The notes under the pieces were generated by a model. That model ran no database searches, was not told the DNA's origin, and was given only the letters and a program-made list of their open reading frames with translations. The position numbers and the translations under genes are program-made. Below, one piece after another: positions 8,636-55,386 of a DNA stretch of 64,000 bases. Position 1 is the first letter of the stretch. Every line of letters starts with the position of its first letter. This DNA is from Clostridia bacterium (GTDB lineage: Bacteria > Bacillota > Clostridia > UBA1381). The DNA lies in NCBI GenBank assembly GCA_017443895.1, contig JAFSXU010000023.1, forward strand, positions 1 to 64,000, in the 5' to 3' direction.

Positions 8636-8671
8636 AAAAATATGGCTGTTGCTTGTAAGAACAGTTAGTAT

Positions 8672-8840
8672 GAGGACTGATTGATTTTAGATGCAGAACG
8701 GACACAACTCACCCGATGGCGTATGTGTATACTCCGAGTGGTGAGTTGTTTTCGTAATAGAACGGCATAATATTGTAACAGAAATACTTTTGTTACAATA
8801 TTATGCCGTTCTATGTTCTGCGCTAAAAGCGACAGTCCTA
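8672..8840 (+). repeat. Multi-hairpin intergenic element, copy 1
   Basis: Outer arms AGGACTG (8673-8679) and CAGTCCT (8833-8839) are complementary. Inside them GCAGAAC (8693-8699) pairs with GTTCTGC (8815-8821). The region between contains hairpin 1 (ACAACTCACC 8704-8713 with GGTGAGTTGT 8740-8749), a TTCGTAAT linker, and hairpin 2, a perfect 23 bp inverted repeat (8758-8780 with 8791-8813). The layout is a closing stem with two inner hairpins. Copies at 51717, 54972 and 55097 share the core motifs. The right end overlaps the stop codon of the convergent PHP gene. Confidence 0.75.
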
Positions 8841-9497
8841 CAATATCGTTGGATTTCCCAAGCTCCTAACCAATTCATTTGCACGGCGAAGAGCCTTATA
8901 TCTGTATTCCTCAATCCAGTGCGTATCAGAGCCGACGCTCATAGGGATTTTACTGTTTTTTATAATCTCCCGCTTTTTATCATTTGTCAAAAAATCATAA
9001 TAATATGTATAGTTCCCCGATATATTAAGCTCCCAGAACAGCTTATGCTTTTTCATAATCTGTATCATATCAACATCATATCGCTTTGACATCTTAAATA
9101 TATCGCAGTGTGCAAGACCACACTTACAGAAAAATTTCCGTCTCCAATCAAGAAAATCATATAAATCCATTGCCCTCTCATCATCAAGCGACTCAAAAAG
9201 CACATAATCAAGCTTTGAGGCATCCTTTGGATTAAAATCCTCGGGATATGGCCTTGTACCAATCTCAAGCCCTATAAGCACCGTTATCTTATTCTTATAC
9301 TTTTCCTTACATTCAAGGAGGCGCTTGTAATAATTTGAAATATCACGCCCGATGCTGAACTGATGATCCGTAATTCCTATAACATCAATACTGTGCGCAA
9401 TGGCATTTTCGATTATTTCCTCGGGCGTATTCGTTCCGTCATAGCTAAATGTCGTATGGTTATGTAAATCCATGGTCTTTTTAGTGCAGAATAACAA
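8838..9497 (-). CDS. PHP-domain phosphoesterase
   Basis: The protein begins with the PHP metal-binding motif (MDLHNHTTFSYDGTN) and continues with GITDHQFS, LIGLEIGTRP and a late SVGSDTHW. PHP proteins use bound metal ions to hydrolyse phosphoesters; relatives include histidinol phosphatase and TrpH-type nucleotide phosphatases, and the exact substrate is unknown. I place the start at the TTG at 9497 because AGGAGG (9510-9505) lies 7 nt upstream; a GTG at 9515 would contain that ribosome binding site and is unlikely. This gives about 219 residues. The gene is convergent with pheT. Confidence 0.8.
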   Translation of the reverse strand: MLFCTKKTMDLHNHTTFSYDGTNTPEEIIENAIAHSIDVIGITDHQFSIGRDISNYYKRLLECKEKYKNKITVLIGLEIGTRPYPEDFNPKDASKLDYVLFESLDDERAMDLYDFLDWRRKFFCKCGLAHCDIFKMSKRYDVDMIQIMKKHKLFWELNISGNYTYYYDFLTNDKKREIIKNSKIPMSVGSDTHWIEEYRYKALRRANELVRSLGNPTIL

Positions 9498-9684: not shown

Positions 9685-9954
9685 AAAATACAGGTAGAGG
9701 CGCATTGTTAATAAGTAGTGTTTTGGAGGTTGCGATAATCTGTGAAAAAGCGCAAAAGGTAAGAATGCCGAAGTGAGAGCATAAATCGCAGTGCTTTTGC
9801 TGGGTATAATGAGAACATCATTATAACTGTCACCGAATAACCGGTATAATGTTACAAAGAGTGCATTGTGCCGTCGGTGGAGAGCTATCGCATTATTACT
9901 GCAATAAAAGGTAATTTATTGACAGATAGCTTTGTATATAGCTATCTGTTTTTT
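9685..9954 (+). promoter_or_regulatory. Lysine riboswitch (L box) with terminator
   Basis: The conserved L-box blocks occur in order: ACAGGTAGAGGCGC, AATAAGTAGTG, GAATGCCGAAGTG, TTGCTGGG, ACTGTCACCG and GTGGAGAGCTATC. The terminator follows as ACAGATAGC / GCTATCTGT around 9922-9949, with a T-run up to about 9954. The AGCTATC at the aptamer's 3' end can compete for the terminator's GATAGCT strand. Bound lysine should favour termination and lower asd-dapA-dapB expression. The pathway match to the downstream genes supports the call strongly. Confidence 0.93.
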
Positions 9955-16057: not shown

Positions 16058-16213
16058 TAAATTTTGGTTTAGCGTACCATTGGATTTATTGTTAATGGGT
16101 ATGGTGTAGGGTTGGGGCTTGCTCCAACCGCATTCCCGATACCGTGAACAACGGCAGGAGCAAGCCCCTGCCCTACAATTACAATACCCATTTACACACA
16201 TAAACCAAAATTA
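16058..16213. repeat. Palindromic MITE-like element, copy A
   Basis: The ends TAAATTTTGGTTTA and TAAACCAAAATTAA are inverted repeats. The core holds two GTAGGG-type hairpin arms (GGGGCTTGCTCC and GGAGCAAGCCCC) around CCCGATACCGTGAACAACGG. Length is about 156 bp with no open frame. It fills most of the 330 nt gap between gap and the XRE gene. Related copies are at 19727, 26955 and 55227. Confidence 0.85.
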
Positions 16214-19726: not shown

Positions 19727-19950
19727 ATAAATTTTGGTTTAGCGTACCAATGCGAAATCGTAAATTGATATGGTCGTAGGGTTGGGGCTTGCTCCAACCG
19801 CATCCCCGACAACGCATATTCAGAACGGCAGGAGCCTTTATAAATCGCAAAGCGATTTATAGGCGTGTTGCCCTTAGAGGCAACAACGCCGTTGATAGAG
19901 CCCCTGCCCTACAATACATTGGGTTAATACCCGTTTAAACCAAAATTTAT
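19727..19950. repeat. Palindromic MITE-like element, copy B, with 63 nt insert
   Basis: The ends ATAAATTTTGGTTTA (19727-19741) and TAAACCAAAATTTAT (19936-19950) are perfect 15 bp inverted repeats. The core matches copy A, in the same orientation, but one hairpin arm is split by a 63 nt insert at 19836-19898. Without the insert the element is about 161 bp. It occupies most of the 400 nt gap before thrH. Confidence 0.87.
19836..19898. repeat. 63 nt nested palindromic insert in copy B
   Basis: The insert splits GGAGC and AGCCCC of the host element's hairpin loop. It has two hairpins: TATAAATCGC-AAA-GCGATTTATA, and a GGCGT..TTGCC / GGCAA..ACGCC stem. The same 63 nt unit, with a different loop in the second hairpin, sits at the same place in copy C (27051-27113). 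Confidence 0.8.
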
Positions 19951-26932: not shown

Positions 26933-26954
26933 GCTTACGGCATTTAATAATAAT

Positions 26955-27176
26955 ATAAATTTTGGTTTATATGCGTAAGTGGGTATCACACATTGTAGGG
27001 CAGGGGCTTGCTCCTGCCGTATCCCCGATACCGTAAACAACGGTTGGAGCCTTTATAAATCGCAAAGCGATTTATAGGCGTGTTGCCGTTGCAGGCAACA
27101 ACGCCGTTGATAGAGCCCCAACCCTACACCTCATATCAATTAACGCTTTTTAATTGGTACGCTAAACCAAAATTTA
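26955..27176. repeat. Palindromic MITE-like element, copy C, with 63 nt insert
   Basis: The ends are ATAAATTTTGGTTTA (26955-26969) and TAAACCAAAATTTA (27163-27176). It is in the opposite orientation to copies A and B, judged by the GCGTACCA-containing end. It has a 63 nt insert at 27051-27113; without it the element is about 159 bp. It occupies most of the 340 nt gap and ends 63 nt before the next start codon. Confidence 0.87.
27051..27113. repeat. 63 nt nested palindromic insert in copy C
   Basis: It has the same length and almost the same sequence as the insert at 19836-19898 and also splits a GGAGC/AGCCCC loop. The loop of its second hairpin is GTTGCA instead of CTTAGA. Confidence 0.8.
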
Positions 27177-47450: not shown

Positions 47451-49208
47451 ATGAACATATTATTTGCAACATCAGAGTCATCACCGTTTGCCAAAACAGG
47501 CGGTTTAGGTGATGTGGCAGGTTCATTGCCTGCAACGCTCCGTGAAAAAGGTGTCGATGCCAGAGTTATAATGCCATTGTATAGATGCATTGCTCAGGAA
47601 TATAAGGACAAAATGAAGTACATTGACCACATCTACATTGATATGGCATGGCGTAAGCAGTATGCAGGTGTGTTTGAGCTTGAATATAACGGCTGTATCT
47701 ACTATTTTGTGGATAACGAGTTTTATTTTAACGGTGACACGCCTTATAGCTTTATCCATCTTGATTGCGAAAAGTTTATATTCTTCTCAAAGGCAGTTTT
47801 GTCGCTGTTACCAACACTGGGCTTCAGACCCGATGTAATTAACTGTAACGACTGGCAGACGGGACCTATTCCCGTGTTCCTTGACACCTTCCGCGACAAT
47901 CCGTTCTATCAGGGAATAAAGACGGTTATGACAATTCATAACCTCAAATTCCAGGGCAGATGGGATTTAAGAGGTATAAAGGACGCTATGGGAATAAGTG
48001 ATTACTATTTCACACCCGATAAGTTAGAGTATTACAAGGATGCCAACCTTTTAAAGGGCGGTATGGTATACGCAGATAAGATTTCAACAGTGTCTGAAAG
48101 CTATGCACACGAGATTACCACACCCGAATACGGCGAGGGACTTGACAGCCTCTTGTCTGCAAGATACAATGACCTTGTGGGAATTGTAAACGGTATTTCA
48201 TATACCGACTGGAATCCGCAGACGGATAAGTTTATCTATGATAATTACACAGCAAAAACGGTTATCAAGAAAAAGGCAGAGAACAAGAAAAAGCTCCAGG
48301 CAGAGCTTGGACTTCCCGTTGATGAGAATAAGATGCTTATCGGTATCGTATCCCGTCTTACCGACCAAAAAGGCTTTGACCTTGTGGCATATAAGATTGA
48401 AGAGCTTTGTAACGGTGGCTGTCAGGTAGTAGTTTTGGGAACGGGCGATGAAAAGTACGAAAACCTGTTCCGTCACTATGCTTGGAAGTATCCGGACAGA
48501 TTTTCGGCTCAGATTTATTTCTCAAACGAGTTGTCGCATAAGATTTATGCCGCATCAGACGCATTCTTAATGCCGTCAAGATTTGAGCCGTGCGGTTTAT
48601 CACAGCTTATTTCAATGCGTTACGGTACAATTCCGATTGTCCGTGAAACAGGCGGCCTAAAGGATACGGTTGAGGCGTATAACGAATACACGGGCGAGGG
48701 TACAGGCTTCTCGTTTGCAAACTATAACGCAGACGAAATGTTAAATATTATTTGGTATGCTATGGATGTATACTACAATAATAAAGAGGCATGGGCAGGA
48801 CTTATTAAAAATGCAATGAGCGCCGATTACTCGTGGAATGTATCTGCGGATAAGTATATCGCACTCTACAGTCAGGTTTCGGGCGTTGAGGCACCCACTT
48901 TACCTGAAAAAAAGACAGCTAAAAAACCTGCTGCCAAGAAACCTGCTAAAAAGCCTGCTCCCAAAAAAGCAGAAAAGAAAGCGGATTTTGAGGAGCGTTT
49001 AAAAGCAGGCGCAAAGCAGTCGGAGGAGTCGGCAATAAGAGTTGCAAATCCTAAGAAGGTAAAGGTTCAAAATCCTTTTGAAGATGCGCAGGAGAAAAAA
49101 GCTCCCGCTAAGAAGGCGGCAAAGAAAACCACAACCGCAAAGTCAACAGCTAAAAAGCCTGCTGCAAAAAAGACTGTAAAAAAGGCTGCTAAAAAGGAAG
49201 ATAAATAA
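47451..49208 (+). CDS. glgA: Glycogen synthase with lysine-rich C-terminal tail
   Basis: Transfers glucose from ADP-glucose to the growing glucan. The GT5 start motif KTGGLGDVAGSLP is at residues 15-27. The second Rossmann domain has SRLTDQKGFDL, and the catalytic end PSRFEPCGLSQLISMRYGTIP. The GT5 core ends near residue 483. A tail of about 100 residues then follows, one third lysine and rich in Ala/Pro (repeats of AKKPA), resembling the ends of histone H1-like proteins. I choose the ATG at 47451 after AAAGGA; it makes the normal GT5 N-terminus. Length is 585 residues. glgP follows after 22 nt. Confidence 0.96.
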   Translation: MNILFATSESSPFAKTGGLGDVAGSLPATLREKGVDARVIMPLYRCIAQEYKDKMKYIDHIYIDMAWRKQYAGVFELEYNGCIYYFVDNEFYFNGDTPYSFIHLDCEKFIFFSKAVLSLLPTLGFRPDVINCNDWQTGPIPVFLDTFRDNPFYQGIKTVMTIHNLKFQGRWDLRGIKDAMGISDYYFTPDKLEYYKDANLLKGGMVYADKISTVSESYAHEITTPEYGEGLDSLLSARYNDLVGIVNGISYTDWNPQTDKFIYDNYTAKTVIKKKAENKKKLQAELGLPVDENKMLIGIVSRLTDQKGFDLVAYKIEELCNGGCQVVVLGTGDEKYENLFRHYAWKYPDRFSAQIYFSNELSHKIYAASDAFLMPSRFEPCGLSQLISMRYGTIPIVRETGGLKDTVEAYNEYTGEGTGFSFANYNADEMLNIIWYAMDVYYNNKEAWAGLIKNAMSADYSWNVSADKYIALYSQVSGVEAPTLPEKKTAKKPAAKKPAKKPAPKKAEKKADFEERLKAGAKQSEESAIRVANPKKVKVQNPFEDAQEKKAPAKKAAKKTTTAKSTAKKPAAKKTVKKAAKKEDK

Positions 49209-49230
49209 TAAATAAGGGGAAATTTAACAA

Positions 49231-51714
49231 ATGGCAACAACAAAAACAACTAAGACATCGAAGTCTTTAAAGCTTACAGCAAAAGAGGAAGCTTTAAGAA
49301 ACGAAATTGTAGGAAAGGTCAGCAGACATTTCGGTAAGGTACTTGAGGATGCAACTCCGCATATGATTTATACCGCTTGTGCTTTGACTGTCCGTGACCA
49401 GATAATGGAGAAATGGGCATTATCTCACAAGGAAGTCAAGAAAGAAGGCTCAAAGAAGCTTTACTATCTTTCATTCGAGTTCCTTATGGGCAGACTTTTA
49501 AGCACAAACATCTTAAACCTTATGCAGACAAAGGAATACCAGAATGTTTTAGAGAGCTTGGGCTACACCTTACAGGATGTTGCAGAGCTTGAGAATGACG
49601 CAGGCTTGGGTAACGGCGGTTTAGGTCGTCTTGCGGCTTGCTTTATAGACTCATTAACAACTATGGATTTACCTGCATACGGCTGTACCTTGAGATATGA
49701 ATACGGTCTGTTCCGTCAGAAGATTGTAGACGGTTATCAGACAGAAATTCCCGATACATGGCTTGAAAACGGTAACGCATGGGAGGTCGCAAGACCTGAG
49801 GAGACAGTTTCCGTAAACTTTGGCGGTCATGTGGAAACAGGCTGGCAGGACGGTAAGTTTGTATGTGAATACAAGCCACAGCATACAATTTTGGCTATGC
49901 CTTATGATGTTCCGCTTGTTGGTTACGATTCAAAGATTATAAATAAATTAAGATTATGGAATGCAAAATCACCTGATTCTATGGATATGTCAGCATTTAA
50001 CCGTGGTGATTATGTAAGAGCGACAGAGGAAAAGGCGCTTGCAGAGGTTATTTCAAAGGTATTGTACCCCGAGGATAACCATACAGAGGGTAAGGAATTA
50101 AGATTAAAACAGCAGTATTTCTTGGTATCTGCAACATTGCAGTGGATATTAAGAGAGTTTGAGGAAAGAAACGGTGCAAACTGGTCAAAAATCCCGGATA
50201 AGGTAGTTATCCACATTAACGATACACACCCGACTCTTGCAATTCCCGAAATGATGAGAATACTCATGGACGAAAAGGGCTTAGGCTGGGACGAAGCATG
50301 GGATATTGTTACACATACCTTTGCATACACAAACCATACCGTACTTGCAGAAGCGCTTGAAAAGTGGCCGCTTGATTTGTTTGGAAGAGTTTTACCTCGT
50401 ATCATTATGATAGTTGAGGAGATAAACCGCAGACTTATGATTAAGCTTGAAGAGGCATATCCGGGCGATCATGGCAAGCATAAGTATATGGCTGTAATTT
50501 CCGATAACCAGGTATTTATGGCAAACCTTTGCCTTGCAAGCTGTTTTGCGGTAAACGGTGTATCAAAGCTCCATACCGAGATTTTAAAGAACGATATATT
50601 CAGAGACTACTATAACCTTGATAAGAGCCGTTTCTTTGCAATTACAAACGGTATAACCTTCCGTCGCTGGATTGCAAACTGTAACCCTGAGCTTACAGAG
50701 CTTATCACATCAAAGATAGGCGAGGGCTGGTTAAAGGACGCAACCAAGCTTTCAAAGTTAAAGAAGTTTGCAAAGGATAAGGAATTTAGAGCAGAGTTTG
50801 CAAAGATTAAGCATAATAATAAGTTAAGACTTGTAGAGTATATCAAGGAGCATAACGGTATCGAGGTAAATCCTGATTCAATATTCGATGTTCAGTGCAA
50901 GCGTTTGCATGAATATAAGCGTCAGATGATGAATATTCTTCATATTCTTGCCGAATACAACAGAATACTTGAAGATCCTACTTATGACTATTATCCAAAG
51001 ACATATATCTTCGGCGCTAAGGCAGCACCGGGCTATACAAGAGCAAAGCTTATCATTAAACTTATTAACTCAGTAGGTGATATGATAAACAATGACCCAA
51101 GAGTAAACGGTAAGATTAAGGTAGTATTTCTTGAAAACTACAGCGTTTCAATTGCCGAGAAGCTCATCATTGCCGCTGATGTATCTGAGCAGATTTCAAC
51201 GGCAGGTAAAGAAGCATCGGGTACAGGTAACATGAAGTTTATGTTAAACGGTGCAGTTACAATCGGTACGCTTGACGGTGCAAATATCGAGATGCTTGAA
51301 CAGGTTGGCGAGGATAATATTTATATCTTCGGCCTTAAAGCTGACGAGGTTGCCGCACGCAATAAGTATCCGGGAACTGACGAGGTTAAGAATATCTATA
51401 CTCAAAACCGCGCCCTAAGACACGCTCTTGAGCAGTTTGTTGACGGTTCAATTGTAGAGAATAACCACGCATTGTTCAATGACCTTTATAAGACATTGTT
51501 ATTCGGCGATTACGGTTATCCTGACACATATATGGTAATTCGTGACTTTGAGGACTATATGAGAACTCAGGAAAGAATTTCAAAGGATTATCAGGATAAG
51601 GATAAGTGGCTTACCATGGCTGTTATGAACACAGCATCAGCAGGCTTCTTCTCAAGTGACAGAACAATCGACGACTACAATAAGAATATATGGCACTTAA
51701 AGCCTATAAAATAA
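49231..51714 (+). CDS. glgP: Glycogen phosphorylase
   Basis: Releases glucose 1-phosphate from glycogen ends. It has typical GT35 motifs: LGNGGLGRLAACF, NDTHPTLAIPE, QCKRLHEYKRQ, and the pyridoxal-phosphate lysine K669 in GTGNMKFMLNGA. The first ~20 residues are rich in Thr and Lys (TTKTTKTSKSLKL), a small echo of the basic tails of GlgA and GlgB. Length is 827 residues. AAGGGGA precedes the ATG. A multi-hairpin element begins 3 nt after the stop. Confidence 0.97.
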   Translation: MATTKTTKTSKSLKLTAKEEALRNEIVGKVSRHFGKVLEDATPHMIYTACALTVRDQIMEKWALSHKEVKKEGSKKLYYLSFEFLMGRLLSTNILNLMQTKEYQNVLESLGYTLQDVAELENDAGLGNGGLGRLAACFIDSLTTMDLPAYGCTLRYEYGLFRQKIVDGYQTEIPDTWLENGNAWEVARPEETVSVNFGGHVETGWQDGKFVCEYKPQHTILAMPYDVPLVGYDSKIINKLRLWNAKSPDSMDMSAFNRGDYVRATEEKALAEVISKVLYPEDNHTEGKELRLKQQYFLVSATLQWILREFEERNGANWSKIPDKVVIHINDTHPTLAIPEMMRILMDEKGLGWDEAWDIVTHTFAYTNHTVLAEALEKWPLDLFGRVLPRIIMIVEEINRRLMIKLEEAYPGDHGKHKYMAVISDNQVFMANLCLASCFAVNGVSKLHTEILKNDIFRDYYNLDKSRFFAITNGITFRRWIANCNPELTELITSKIGEGWLKDATKLSKLKKFAKDKEFRAEFAKIKHNNKLRLVEYIKEHNGIEVNPDSIFDVQCKRLHEYKRQMMNILHILAEYNRILEDPTYDYYPKTYIFGAKAAPGYTRAKLIIKLINSVGDMINNDPRVNGKIKVVFLENYSVSIAEKLIIAADVSEQISTAGKEASGTGNMKFMLNGAVTIGTLDGANIEMLEQVGEDNIYIFGLKADEVAARNKYPGTDEVKNIYTQNRALRHALEQFVDGSIVENNHALFNDLYKTLLFGDYGYPDTYMVIRDFEDYMRTQERISKDYQDKDKWLTMAVMNTASAGFFSSDRTIDDYNKNIWHLKPIK

Positions 51715-51716
51715 CT

Positions 51717-51852
51717 CAAGGCTGTCGCTTTTTGTGCAGACCATTCAAAAGCTAATTGCTTTTGAATTACGAACCAAACTCACCACTCGGAGTATAAACA
51801 TACGCCGTCGGGTGAGTTTAGTCCGTTCTGCATCAAAAATCGGCAAGCCTTG
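51717..51852 (-). repeat. Multi-hairpin intergenic element, copy 2
   Basis: Outer arms CAAGGCT (51717-51723) and AGCCTTG (51846-51852) are complementary. Read on the minus strand it has GATGCAGAACGGAC, a hairpin with stem AAACTCACC / GGTGAGTTT, the linker TTCGTAAT, a second hairpin AAAAGC / GCTTTT, then GGTCTGCAC and AAAAGCGACAG. The hairpin 1 loop matches copy 1 almost base for base, while the outer arms differ. Confidence 0.75.
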
Positions 51853-51888
51853 TGTTTGTGATTTTTAAAATTTAACAGAGGTGTATAA

Positions 51889-53817
51889 ATGGATATTGAA
51901 CATAACAGTCATTTAAAATTCTACCGTCGTCCGTTTGGTGCGGTCAAGTGCGGTACGGAAATCCGTATTCGACTGTCTGTTGCAGGTGTAGGAATACCGC
52001 AGGCTGTAAGATTTGTGTATAAGCCCGATACCGAGGACGAGCGAAAATGTGATATGCCATATGTATTTGAGGTGGGCGGTCAAAGCATTTATGAGGCAAG
52101 GGTTAAAATGCCCGATACTGTTGGTCTTGTATGGTATTATTTTGAGCTTGTAACCGACCAGGGTACGGTTTATTACGGAAATAACAGCAAAAACCTTGGC
52201 GGCAAGGGCGAATTATGCTTCCATAAACCAAATAATTCGTTCCAGATAACGGTGTACAGTGCGGACTATAAAACGCCCGATTGGTTTAAAAAATGCGTAG
52301 CATACCAGATTTTCCCCGACCGTTTCTGTAACGGCAATGATGACGGCAGCTTTTTGGGCGACCGTACAGACATTATAAAACGGAACTGGGGCGATGAGCC
52401 GTTTTACAAAGCCGAGCAGTTTGGCGGCGAGTATAAATGTAACGATTTCTTTGGCGGTAACTTAAAAGGCGTTATAAAAAAGCTCCCGTACTTAAAAGAG
52501 CTTGGAATTTCAGTAATTTATCTAAACCCTATATTTAAGGCATACTCAAACCATAAATATGACACGGGAAGCTATGACGAGATTGACCCGATGTTCGGTG
52601 ACGAGGAAACCTTCCGTGAGCTTTGCAAAACCGCAAAGGATATGGGTATCCGCATAATATTAGACGGTGTATTTAACCATACAGGCTCTGACAGTAAATA
52701 CTTTAACAAAAACGGCACATATGACAGTGTCGGTGCATACCAGTCCCAGGATTCGCCATTTTATAAATGGTATAGGTTTATGGACTGGCCAAATGTTTAC
52801 GAATCATGGTGGGGAATGAACACCTTACCACAGGTCGAGGAGCATAGCGAGGAATACAGGAAATATGTATTGTCAGATGAGAATGCCGTTGTAAAAAAAT
52901 GGCTAAGGGCAGGCGCATCTGGCTGGAGACTTGATGTGGTTGACGAGCTTCCCGATTTTTTTGTTGAGGAACTCCACGAAAATGTAAAATCGGTTGACCC
53001 CGATGCCGTAGTTATCGGCGAGGTATGGGAGGACGCGTCAAATAAGACCGCATATGACGAGAGGCGCAAATATTTCATGGGTAAAGAGCTTGACTCTGTA
53101 ATGAACTATCCCATGCGCGATGCGATAATCAGCGCAATTTTACTTAAAATTGACGCCCGTGAGCTTGATGCAAGACTTATGAGCCTTAAAGAGAATTATC
53201 CTGAGCCTGCGTATTATTCATTGCTTAATATCATGTCATCACATGATGTTGAGCGTGTTATGACCTTGATGTCGGGCGCACCTACACGGCACGAGGTAGA
53301 CAGAAATTATCAGGCAGAGTTTAGTATTGAGGGCTTTGCTCTTGATCTTGCAATAGAGCGTGCAACTCTTGCTTTGGGACTTCAAATGATGCTCCCGGGC
53401 GTGCCGTGCGTGTATTACGGAGACGAAATAGGTATGCAGGGCTATGGCGATCCTTTCTGCCGTCGCACCTTCCCGTGGGATAATATGAATAAGTATGACC
53501 CATCGGGCAAGGTAAACCAAAGATATAAAAAAATGATACATTTAAGAAACTCGTCCGACGCTTTCTCAATCGGTAAATACGACAGTGTTTATAAAGAGGG
53601 ACAGGTATATGCGTTTATGCGCCGTACGGACGATGAAAAGTTTTTGGTTATGGCAAATATGGGCTTAAATCAGGAGTATGTAAGAATTGATATTGCAAGA
53701 TATAAGCCAAATAAGCTCGTTGCTCTCGCAGGCGGTGATGAGACTTTAGAAACACAGGACGGCATCTTTATTATAGGTATGAGCAGGGTATCGTTAAAGG
53801 TATACAGAGTGGAATAA
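51889..53817 (+). CDS. GH13 alpha-glucan hydrolase (neopullulanase/cyclomaltodextrinase type)
   Basis: A 642-residue GH13 enzyme. An N-terminal CBM34-like domain (about residues 1-125) precedes the barrel, with the nucleophile D349 (GWRLDVVDELP), the acid E378 (VIGEVWED) and D453 (SSHDVERVM). The conserved ILDGVFNHTG region lies near residue 263. No signal peptide is present, so it acts inside the cell on maltodextrins, pullulan-like or cyclic dextrins, in line with its place after glgP. GGTGTATAA precedes the ATG. It ends in a strong terminator. Confidence 0.92.
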   Translation: MDIEHNSHLKFYRRPFGAVKCGTEIRIRLSVAGVGIPQAVRFVYKPDTEDERKCDMPYVFEVGGQSIYEARVKMPDTVGLVWYYFELVTDQGTVYYGNNSKNLGGKGELCFHKPNNSFQITVYSADYKTPDWFKKCVAYQIFPDRFCNGNDDGSFLGDRTDIIKRNWGDEPFYKAEQFGGEYKCNDFFGGNLKGVIKKLPYLKELGISVIYLNPIFKAYSNHKYDTGSYDEIDPMFGDEETFRELCKTAKDMGIRIILDGVFNHTGSDSKYFNKNGTYDSVGAYQSQDSPFYKWYRFMDWPNVYESWWGMNTLPQVEEHSEEYRKYVLSDENAVVKKWLRAGASGWRLDVVDELPDFFVEELHENVKSVDPDAVVIGEVWEDASNKTAYDERRKYFMGKELDSVMNYPMRDAIISAILLKIDARELDARLMSLKENYPEPAYYSLLNIMSSHDVERVMTLMSGAPTRHEVDRNYQAEFSIEGFALDLAIERATLALGLQMMLPGVPCVYYGDEIGMQGYGDPFCRRTFPWDNMNKYDPSGKVNQRYKKMIHLRNSSDAFSIGKYDSVYKEGQVYAFMRRTDDEKFLVMANMGLNQEYVRIDIARYKPNKLVALAGGDETLETQDGIFIIGMSRVSLKVYRVE

Positions 53818-53999: not shown

Positions 54000-54971
54000 A
54001 TGGAAAGAAAAGGAAACTTATTGTCATACCGCCCCGATATTAAGGTGGTTGATGCAACACTAAGAGACGGAGGCCTGTTAAACGACTTCTTTTTTGATGA
54101 TGATTTTGTAAAGGCATTGTATCAGGCAAACATTAAAGCGGGCGTTGACTTTATGGAGTTTGGCTACAGAGCGTCTAAGGAGCTTTTTGATACGAATGAG
54201 TTTGGAAAATGGAAGTTCTGTGACGAGGAAGCTATAAGAGAAATTGTGGGAACTAACGACTCCGATATGGGCATCGCCGTTATGGCGGATGTCGGAAGAA
54301 CTGAAATGGATGATTTTCTGCCAAAAAGCGAGAGCGTTATTGATATGGTAAGGATTGCAACATACATCCACCAAATTCCTGCGGCTGTTGATATGGCTGA
54401 AAAACTGCACGATTTGGGGTATATTACAAGCGTTAATATTATGGCTATTGCAACCGCAAAAACCGAAGATATTGTTCAGGCGCTTAATATGCTTGGCGAG
54501 TCAAGCGTTGATATTATTTATATAGTTGACAGCTATGGCTCCCTGTACCCTGAGGAAATCCGTGAGCTATCCAAGCTCTATCTTGAGATAGGCGAGAAAT
54601 ATAATAAGAAAATCGGTATTCATGCGCATAATAACCAACAGCTTGCATTTGCTAACACCATTGAGGCTACCTCTATCGGTGTCAGCTATCTTGATGCAAC
54701 CATGATGGGTATGGGACGGGGCGCCGGAAATTGCACCTTAGAATCCCTTTTGGGATTTTTGAAAAATCCCCGTTACCGCATTATCTTTACCTTAAAATTT
54801 ATTCAGGATTATATCCTTCCTTTAAAGGAGCATCTCGTTTGGGGTTATGAAATCCCCTACCTTGTAACCGGCTTATTAAACCAGCACCCCCGCAGTGCCA
54901 TTGCCGCTATCAAGGCAAATAACACCAATTACGCAGAGTTTTATAAAGAGGTCTGGTATCGCGAAGCCTAA
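54000..54971 (+). CDS. HMGL-like aldolase family protein
   Basis: A 323-residue member of the HMG-CoA lyase-like/4-hydroxy-2-oxovalerate aldolase superfamily. The metal-site motif VVDATLRDGG is at residues 16-25, and the later metal-binding HAHNN motif (IGIHAHNNQQLAFAN) near 204. Relatives cleave or form C-C bonds with acyl or keto substrates; the substrate is not predictable. It lacks the LeuA regulatory domain. AGGAGG stands before the ATG. Two tandem multi-hairpin elements start right at its stop codon. Confidence 0.83.
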   Translation: MERKGNLLSYRPDIKVVDATLRDGGLLNDFFFDDDFVKALYQANIKAGVDFMEFGYRASKELFDTNEFGKWKFCDEEAIREIVGTNDSDMGIAVMADVGRTEMDDFLPKSESVIDMVRIATYIHQIPAAVDMAEKLHDLGYITSVNIMAIATAKTEDIVQALNMLGESSVDIIYIVDSYGSLYPEEIRELSKLYLEIGEKYNKKIGIHAHNNQQLAFANTIEATSIGVSYLDATMMGMGRGAGNCTLESLLGFLKNPRYRIIFTLKFIQDYILPLKEHLVWGYEIPYLVTGLLNQHPRSAIAAIKANNTNYAEFYKEVWYREA

Positions 54972-55090
54972 TTTTGGTGGGTTATTTTTGCGCAGACCGT
55001 TACACTACAAAAAAAGTCAGAGCTCGATGTACCATCGTACTATCGAGCCCTGACTTTTTCCGTTCTGCATCAAAACTAACCTCACCAAAA
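54972..55090 (-). repeat. Multi-hairpin intergenic element, copy 3
   Basis: Outer arms are TTTTGGTG (54972-54979) and CACCAAAA (55083-55090). Read on the minus strand: GATGCAGAACGGA, then one long hairpin with stem GGCTCGAT / ATCGAGCT inside AAAAGTCAG / CTGACTTTT and a loop AGTACGATGGTAC, then AACGGTCTGCGC. The second hairpin of copies 1 and 2 is absent. It abuts the aldolase stop codon. Confidence 0.78.
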
Positions 55091-55096
55091 CCAAGA

Positions 55097-55215
55097 TTTT
55101 GACGGGTTATTTTTGCGTGGACCATTTCATTACGAATTCAAACAGTCATCAATGTACCATCGTACTATTGATGACTGTTTTCATCCGTTCCACATCAAAA
55201 CTAACCTCACCAAAA
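55097..55215 (-). repeat. Multi-hairpin intergenic element, copy 4
   Basis: In tandem with copy 3 and of the same length. Read on the minus strand: GATGTGGAACGGATG, a hairpin with stem AAACAGTCATCAAT / ATTGATGACTGTTT and loop AGTACGATGGTAC, the linker TTCGTAAT, then GGTCCACGC. Relative to the other copies GCAGA has become GTGGA and the partner TCTGC has become TCCAC, keeping all five pairs. Confidence 0.78.
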
Positions 55216-55226
55216 TGTGATATAAC

Positions 55227-55386
55227 ATAAATTTTGGTTTATCGGTGTAAATGGGTATTACAAATTGTAGGGCAGGGGCTTGCTCCTGCCGTATCCCCGA
55301 TACCGTAAACAACGGTTGGAGCAAGCCCCAACCCTACACCATACCCATTAACAATAAATTAAATGGTACGCTAAACTAAAATTTAT
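55227..55386. repeat. Palindromic MITE-like element, copy D
   Basis: The ends are ATAAATTTTGGTTTA (55227-55241) and TAAACTAAAATTTAT (55372-55386). The core is as in copy C but without the 63 nt insert; length is about 160 bp. The right end contributes the stop codon of the transglutaminase-like gene. With elements 3 and 4 it fills the 410 nt gap between the convergent genes. Confidence 0.87.

Follow-up and report, generated by a model that had tools for sequence, protein, structure and literature searches.

IS1272 and TnSha1, which belong to the IS1182 family, are reported to insert into terminator hairpins, delete them in part and leave no target duplication (PMC5678879, PMC4923244), and REP sequences measure 20-40 bp, carry GTAG/CGTC tags and go with Y1 transposases (PMC3733652). 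Here we analyse copies 3 and 4 of a palindromic repeat that lie in tandem behind an aldolase gene in a stretch of 64,000 nucleotides from the Clostridia bacterium assembly GCA_017443895.1 (contig JAFSXU010000023.1, positions 1 to 64,000; hereafter the window). On balance we think it probable that both copies are members of a dispersed, non-autonomous Clostridia family resembling miniature inverted-repeat transposable elements (MITEs), which adopts a three-way-junction fold, was spread in the manner of IS1182/IS1272 and is kept as a structure at gene 3' ends.

The family shares with the IS1182 elements IS1272 and TnSha1 (PMC5678879, PMC4923244) the GGGGCTGTNGC... ends (15 nt are identical between elements of genome G013 and an IS1182 element of G018), the placement at sites where terminators stand, an apparent lack of target duplication and the presence of both orientations. 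In contrast to these elements it is ~120-200 bp long and without a transposase gene, harbours a covarying three-way junction and has mostly degenerate ends, and the loss of the target hairpin is suggested by comparison of species rather than of strains. Like MITEs and the ERIC/NEMIS sequences the family is short, dispersed, palindromic and intergenic, with inverted-repeat ends and near-identical copies in some genomes, while it differs from them in sequence and host range, in the class-wide paired changes of its interior and in its tight placement at stop codons. REP/BIME sequences (PMC3733652) are likewise palindromic and extragenic, lie near the 3' end of upstream genes and may be in tandem, but the unit described here has 125 nt, and neither GTAG/CGTC tags nor Y1 transposases were found to go with it. 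Intrinsic terminators occupy the same position in sister genomes, and many copies of the home genome (G000) have A- and T-tracts flanking their long hairpin, P3. However, the family is much larger than a terminator, most copies outside the home genome lack a U-tract, and some are located between probable members of one operon. No Rfam covariance model matched the family, even with permissive E-values over 25 loci, and a description of it was not found in the open-access literature.

Fold of the tandem copies 3 and 4

The two copies are adjacent units with a period of 125 nt, not the 119 nt given in an earlier sequence-only reading of the locus, and are ~78% identical to each other. The family fold is a three-way junction of an outer stem P1, a small hairpin P2 and a long hairpin P3, and the parts of copies 3 and 4 are located as follows, the strand being that of the upstream gene.

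54000-54971, plus strand: upstream gene, HMGL-like aldolase/acyltransferase of 323 aa, with its stop codon directly adjoining copy 3
54970-55094, plus strand: copy 3, whole element, with the outer arm beginning at the stop codon TAA (54969-54971)
54972-54984, plus strand: copy 3, P1 outer arm on the gene side, TTTTGGTGGGTTA, pairing with 55077-55090
54992-54996, plus strand: copy 3, GCAGA of the conserved inner P1, pairing with TCTGC at 55064-55068
54999-55005, plus strand: copy 3, mini-hairpin P2, GT-TAC-AC
55007-55063, plus strand: copy 3, hairpin P3, with apical GTAC-CATC-GTAC and a bulged T at 55029-55041
55077-55090, plus strand: copy 3, P1 outer arm on the distal side, TAACCTCACCAAAA
55095-55219, plus strand: copy 4, whole element
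55117-55121, plus strand: copy 4, GTGGA, pairing with TCCAC at 55189-55193, a compensatory change of two base pairs
55124-55130, plus strand: copy 4, mini-hairpin P2, AT-TTC-AT
55132-55188, plus strand: copy 4, hairpin P3, with the apical loop at 55154-55166 the same as in copy 3

The replacement of GCAGA/TCTGC by GTGGA/TCCAC with all pairing retained, which the sequence-only reading had pointed out, is confirmed as two double-sided base-pair changes, C54993-G55067 to T-A and A54994-T55066 to G-C. Its observation that the hairpin stems differ yet remain self-complementary also holds and extends to the family, as the P3 and arm sequences vary between copies and each pairs with itself. The apical 13-mer AGTACGATGGTAC is indeed common to both copies and is found nowhere else, with 0.04 chance matches expected, but what had been taken for a loop is itself a stem of the form GTAC-NNNN-GTAC with an adjacent bulged base. 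Two parts of the fold had been missed, namely the tiny second hairpin P2 (GTTACAC in copy 3, ATTTCAT in copy 4) and the pairing of the outer arms TTTTGGTGGGTTA...TAACCTCACCAAAA. Folding of both copies is much better than that of dinucleotide-preserving shuffles, with z = -12.4 for copy 3 and -9.4 for copy 4 on the minus strand and z = -12.0 for copy 3 on the plus strand. Read on the minus strand, copy 3 runs GATGCAGAACGG...CGGTCTGCGC and copy 4 GATGTGGAACGG...TGGTCCACGC.

Directly behind copy 4 lies a second, unrelated dispersed repeat of ~160 bp (window 55222-55385, also at 26950-27176, 16058-16212 and 19728-19913), a MITE-like family with ends like TAAATTTTGGTTTA...TACGCTAAACCAAAATTTA, the centre GTAGGGCAGGGGCTTGCTCCTGCC and dozens of copies in the home genome. 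A repeat within a repeat is found in the tandem array at rpoC (L002, G000 C13), where the P3 interior of the third unit is swapped for a piece of another repeat (GTAGGGCAGGGGCTTGCTCCTGCC).

Paired changes across copies and species

Read in the direction of the gene that precedes it, the unit consists of an outer arm, TTTTTGC-GCAGA-CC, the mini-hairpin P2, TAC and hairpin P3, followed by TTCTGC-ATC-AAAA and the second outer arm, and the P3 apex reads GTAY-N4-RTAC with a bulged T across the family. P2 has 2 bp in most copies of the home genome and up to tens of bp in other copies. The GCAGA/TCTGC block is nearly invariant, with the GTGGA/TCCAC variant present in ~2 of 82 copies.

Covariation was analysed in two sets of copies. 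Among 16 copies of the home genome, aligned by MAFFT and with the structure derived from that same alignment, double-sided changes occur in 31 of 50 pairs, and the covariation score of 0.459 compares to 0.170 in shuffles and to at most 0.098 for slid structures. For 82 copies from many genomes the corresponding values are 47 of 50 pairs, 0.439, 0.141 and at most 0.109, where the rows were fitted to the structure of the model and the counts therefore lean towards that structure. The best single witness of fold conservation is P2 with its two pairs; 98.7% of cells are paired there, with G-C, A-U, C-G and U-A combinations. 

Orthologous elements of the sister species G001 provide a further view at four loci, i.e. 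the aldolase gene of the window, rpoC, the C6 locus and pgm. Here ~21 pairs are changed on both sides and still Watson-Crick, compared to ~7 single-sided weakening changes. The sequence-only reading had stated that unpaired changes as common as paired ones in sister genomes would contradict selection on the arms, and such a pattern is not observed. Its claim that the exchange between copies 3 and 4 is the strongest sign of such selection is largely supported with respect to selection on folding but not with respect to rank, as stronger evidence comes from P2 and from the orthologue comparison. The paired changes are unevenly distributed, with 11 double changes at C6 and 0 at rpoC, and the C6 and pgm loci give the impression of hairpins swapped wholesale. 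Concerted change by template switching in palindromes, or the exchange of an element for a different one, could be behind part of the arm changes.

Pairing might also be maintained entirely at the level of the DNA, by palindrome template switching or hairpin repair, in which case the paired changes would be a mutational by-product that involves no selection on the fold. P1 and P3 are long near-perfect palindromes, and wobbles in the outer arms are symmetric between the strands (60 G.T versus 63 A.C), which is what the absence of a favoured RNA strand would predict. However, template switching should not give the near-perfect covariation of a hairpin as short as P2 in most copies, and the conserved junction and apical letters as well as the persistence of the single-sided weakening changes at the sister loci argue against it, so that we consider this explanation improbable. 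Conservation of the fold is strongly supported, and selection on folding is largely supported.

The strand asymmetry of the fold bears on the form in which the element acts. In 94 of 100 copies the minus strand gives the better fold, with a mean difference of ~8 kcal/mol, and several conserved pairs frequently have A.C (equivalent to G.U in the complementary strand) and never G.T. These patterns hint at an ancestral fold shaped by bottom-strand DNA or antisense RNA, although a shared ancestral state could explain them. That the other strand is the acting form, whether as antisense RNA or as a hairpin of bottom-strand DNA, and that the fold of the sense mRNA is incidental, appears quite improbable to us, given that the asymmetry comes from a few positions that may share one ancestral state, that the outer arms are symmetric and that most copies lie in the sense of the preceding gene.

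Distribution and possible traces of mobility

In the home genome ~36 sense copies were counted by model searches, eight sites being tandem pairs, and most of these copies are old (median pairwise identity 0.63). Among relatives the element is very patchy and present in 22 of 61 genomes; G003 and G004, of the same genus, have no element. There are 17 matches in G001 and 28 in G026. Of 391 genomes sampled within the class Clostridia, 44 have matches at E<=0.001, and about twenty of these besides the home genome match below E 1e-8. Carriers with a name include Candidatus Ornithomonoglobus intestinigallinarum and several uncultured Clostridia and Oscillospiraceae bins. Outside the class, across the phylum, 2 of 397 genomes match weakly (E about 1e-5), and single matches near this value are thus background. 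With respect to a phage origin, two pattern scans of viral contigs, made with strict patterns, returned 0 matches. Reverse transcriptase genes (PF00078) are weakly associated with the element in the home family (9 of 15 element-bearing versus 4 of 22 element-free genomes), which is probably an effect of genome size. A link to reverse transcriptase was rejected, as it fails in a second family, where G046 has 9 copies and no such gene.

The family has marks of a MITE that the sequence-only reading had not noticed, with terminal inverted repeats (TIRs), dispersed near-identical copies in G026 and no transposase gene of its own, for which a unit of ~115-200 bp leaves no room. Copies at different loci of G026 are up to 96% identical, and the full-length ones are bounded by the inverted repeats GGGGCTGTCGC...GCGACAGCCCC, with related ends in G009, G012 and G013. 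Three copies of G013 begin with GGGGCTGTAGCAAAA followed directly by TGCACAGAYC. The same 15 letters, GGGGCTGTAGCAAAA, form both ends of a 1.84-kb IS1182-family element in G018, whose 511-aa transposase scores 392.8 bits against the curated IS1182 cut-off of 270; this identity is seen in the one genome pair, with GGGGCTGTNGC-like ends elsewhere. There are 28 occurrences of the motif GGGRCTGTNGCAAAA across 16 genomes, compared to a single occurrence of the reversed control. In 16 full copies the left flanks are rich in A (0.47) and the right flanks in T (0.45); they resemble the tracts that border a terminator hairpin and fit insertion at such sites. No target site duplication was seen by eye in the flanks of full-length copies. 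The element is probably of the IS1182 type. Solo hairpins made of just the two IS1182-type ends (GGGGCTGTTGCAAAAATGCAACAGCCCC) are also located behind genes, in a terminator-like position (L252 1500 at G000 C46:63067, L247 and L251).

Mobilisation of a REP-like element by a Y1 (TnpA-REP) transposase, for which the extragenic palindromes behind genes might speak, is in our view very improbable, the unit being 3-4 times longer and equipped with TIRs. No Y1 transposase was found in the element-rich genomes G026 and G032, and Y1 does not track copy number; a link to Y1/RAYT transposases was rejected. Integron attC sites are bottom-strand hairpins behind stop codons. They were rejected as a candidate because the outermost sequences of the family vary and no attC-type R boxes were seen by eye, where no model test was made.

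Elements at gene 3' ends

Among 100 elements, 85 follow an open reading frame of the same sense, and 72 begin no further than ~14 nt from its stop codon; reading frames were called mechanically, and these position counts are approximate. The next gene downstream, at a distance that varies, is co-directional in 42 cases and convergent in 55, and about a dozen elements are inverted, mostly 16-60 nt behind a gene. At several of the sites sister genomes have plain terminators, namely at rpoC (G002-G004), pgm (G003 and G004), and serA and hpt (G001). The HMGL-like aldolase gene of G003 and G004 ends in an ordinary terminator in place of the element (AAAAAAAGACTGCGCGAGCAGTCTTTTC in G003). The names rpoC, pgm, serA, hpt and tpi were read from the translated sequence without a database call, whereas that of the glycogen phosphorylase, discussed below, is backed by an annotation search.

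Insertion of the IS1272/TnSha1 type would account for the presence of the element at sites that hold terminators in relatives. We propose that an IS1182/IS1272-type transposase spread the copies by inserting them into terminator hairpins, which would be partly deleted without duplication of the target. Once inserted, the element would act as a strong 3'-end structure, either terminator-like or as a stabiliser of the mRNA 3' end, and later changes would survive only with the fold kept. Tandem copies such as 3 and 4 may have arisen by local duplication or repeated insertion and would then have diverged by paired changes.

Alternatively, the elements could be a class of cis-acting structured RNAs of mRNA 3' ends (terminators, operon attenuators or 3' stabilisers) that descend vertically and duplicate locally, with mobility being incidental. 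The strong covariation, the fixed position at the stop codon, the substitution for ordinary terminators at the same genes and five elements retained at loci orthologous in G001 are all consistent with such a class. It is more difficult to reconcile with the very patchy occurrence within one genus, the near-identical dispersed copies, the TIRs and the absence of a consistent U-tract, and we regard it as rather unlikely.

Spread by an IS1182/IS1272-type transposase and retention as a 3'-end structure is the reading we prefer, and several observations weigh against it. Only 40 of 100 copies have a left end that can be recognised as TIR-like, and copies 3 and 4, with their degenerate ends, are not among them. 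In 16 copies tested, the flanks beyond the TIRs showed no more complementarity than chance and so do not reveal leftover halves of the target hairpin, and the idea that the outer flanks are remnant stems of host terminators was discarded. No IS1182 transposase was found in G026 or G009, which are 85-88% complete (G026 88%), and G000 holds only a C-terminal fragment of one. At two element sites of G000, tpi and the glycogen phosphorylase gene, G001 lacks both element and terminator and the next gene follows directly, where G000 has the element between the genes; the clean difference in presence at these two loci also speaks for the preferred reading. Of 100 elements, 43 contain a U-tract hairpin on the sense strand and 52 on the other strand, and a separate terminator-like hairpin, in some cases the next tandem unit, lies downstream of 25 of 100. 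Based on the 43 internal and 25 separate hairpins, terminator function is not general. As no transposase was found in G026 and only a remnant in G000, and as the flanks are not complementary, the mobiliser is inferred. Mobilisation, termination and the acting strand are likewise inferred. For the home genome, termination or 3'-end stabilisation is plausible from the A- and T-tracts that flank P3.

In a wider form of the proposal, structure-dependent elements would replace terminators throughout the class and take over their function, the fold (of bottom-strand DNA or antisense RNA) being recognised by the transposition machinery. Under such recognition the sequence could drift freely in pairs with the fold kept. 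We put this forward as a tentative and unlikely extension.

The glycogen phosphorylase spacer (window 51714-51889 and orthologues) contains a different long palindrome in each of G000, G002, G003 and G004 and none in G001, as if the hairpin had been repeatedly replaced. Together with copies 3 and 4, the window harbours two more copies, one of them in this spacer.

8667-8843, minus strand: copy 1, with a very long P2, between pheT (plus strand, ends 8635) and a PHP-domain gene (minus strand, ends 8838)
51714-51857, plus strand: copy 2, with a long P2, between the glycogen phosphorylase gene (49231-51714) and an amylase/GlgX-like gene (51889-53817)

Just before the glycogen phosphorylase gene, low-complexity coding repeats rich in Lys/Ala/Pro codons (window 48894-49213) encode a basic repetitive protein tail. 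Rfam models matched the window at one place only, a lysine riboswitch aptamer (RF00168, 120 bits, 9687-9895).

The family, which is absent from Rfam, provides a large and clean natural set of compensatory changes, covering 47 of 50 pairs, and it would link structured intergenic repeats to the terminator-replacing transposition of IS1182. At rpoC, serA, pgm and tpi sister species have a plain terminator, the element or nothing. If our reading is true, a selfish palindrome can take over the 3' ends of genes.
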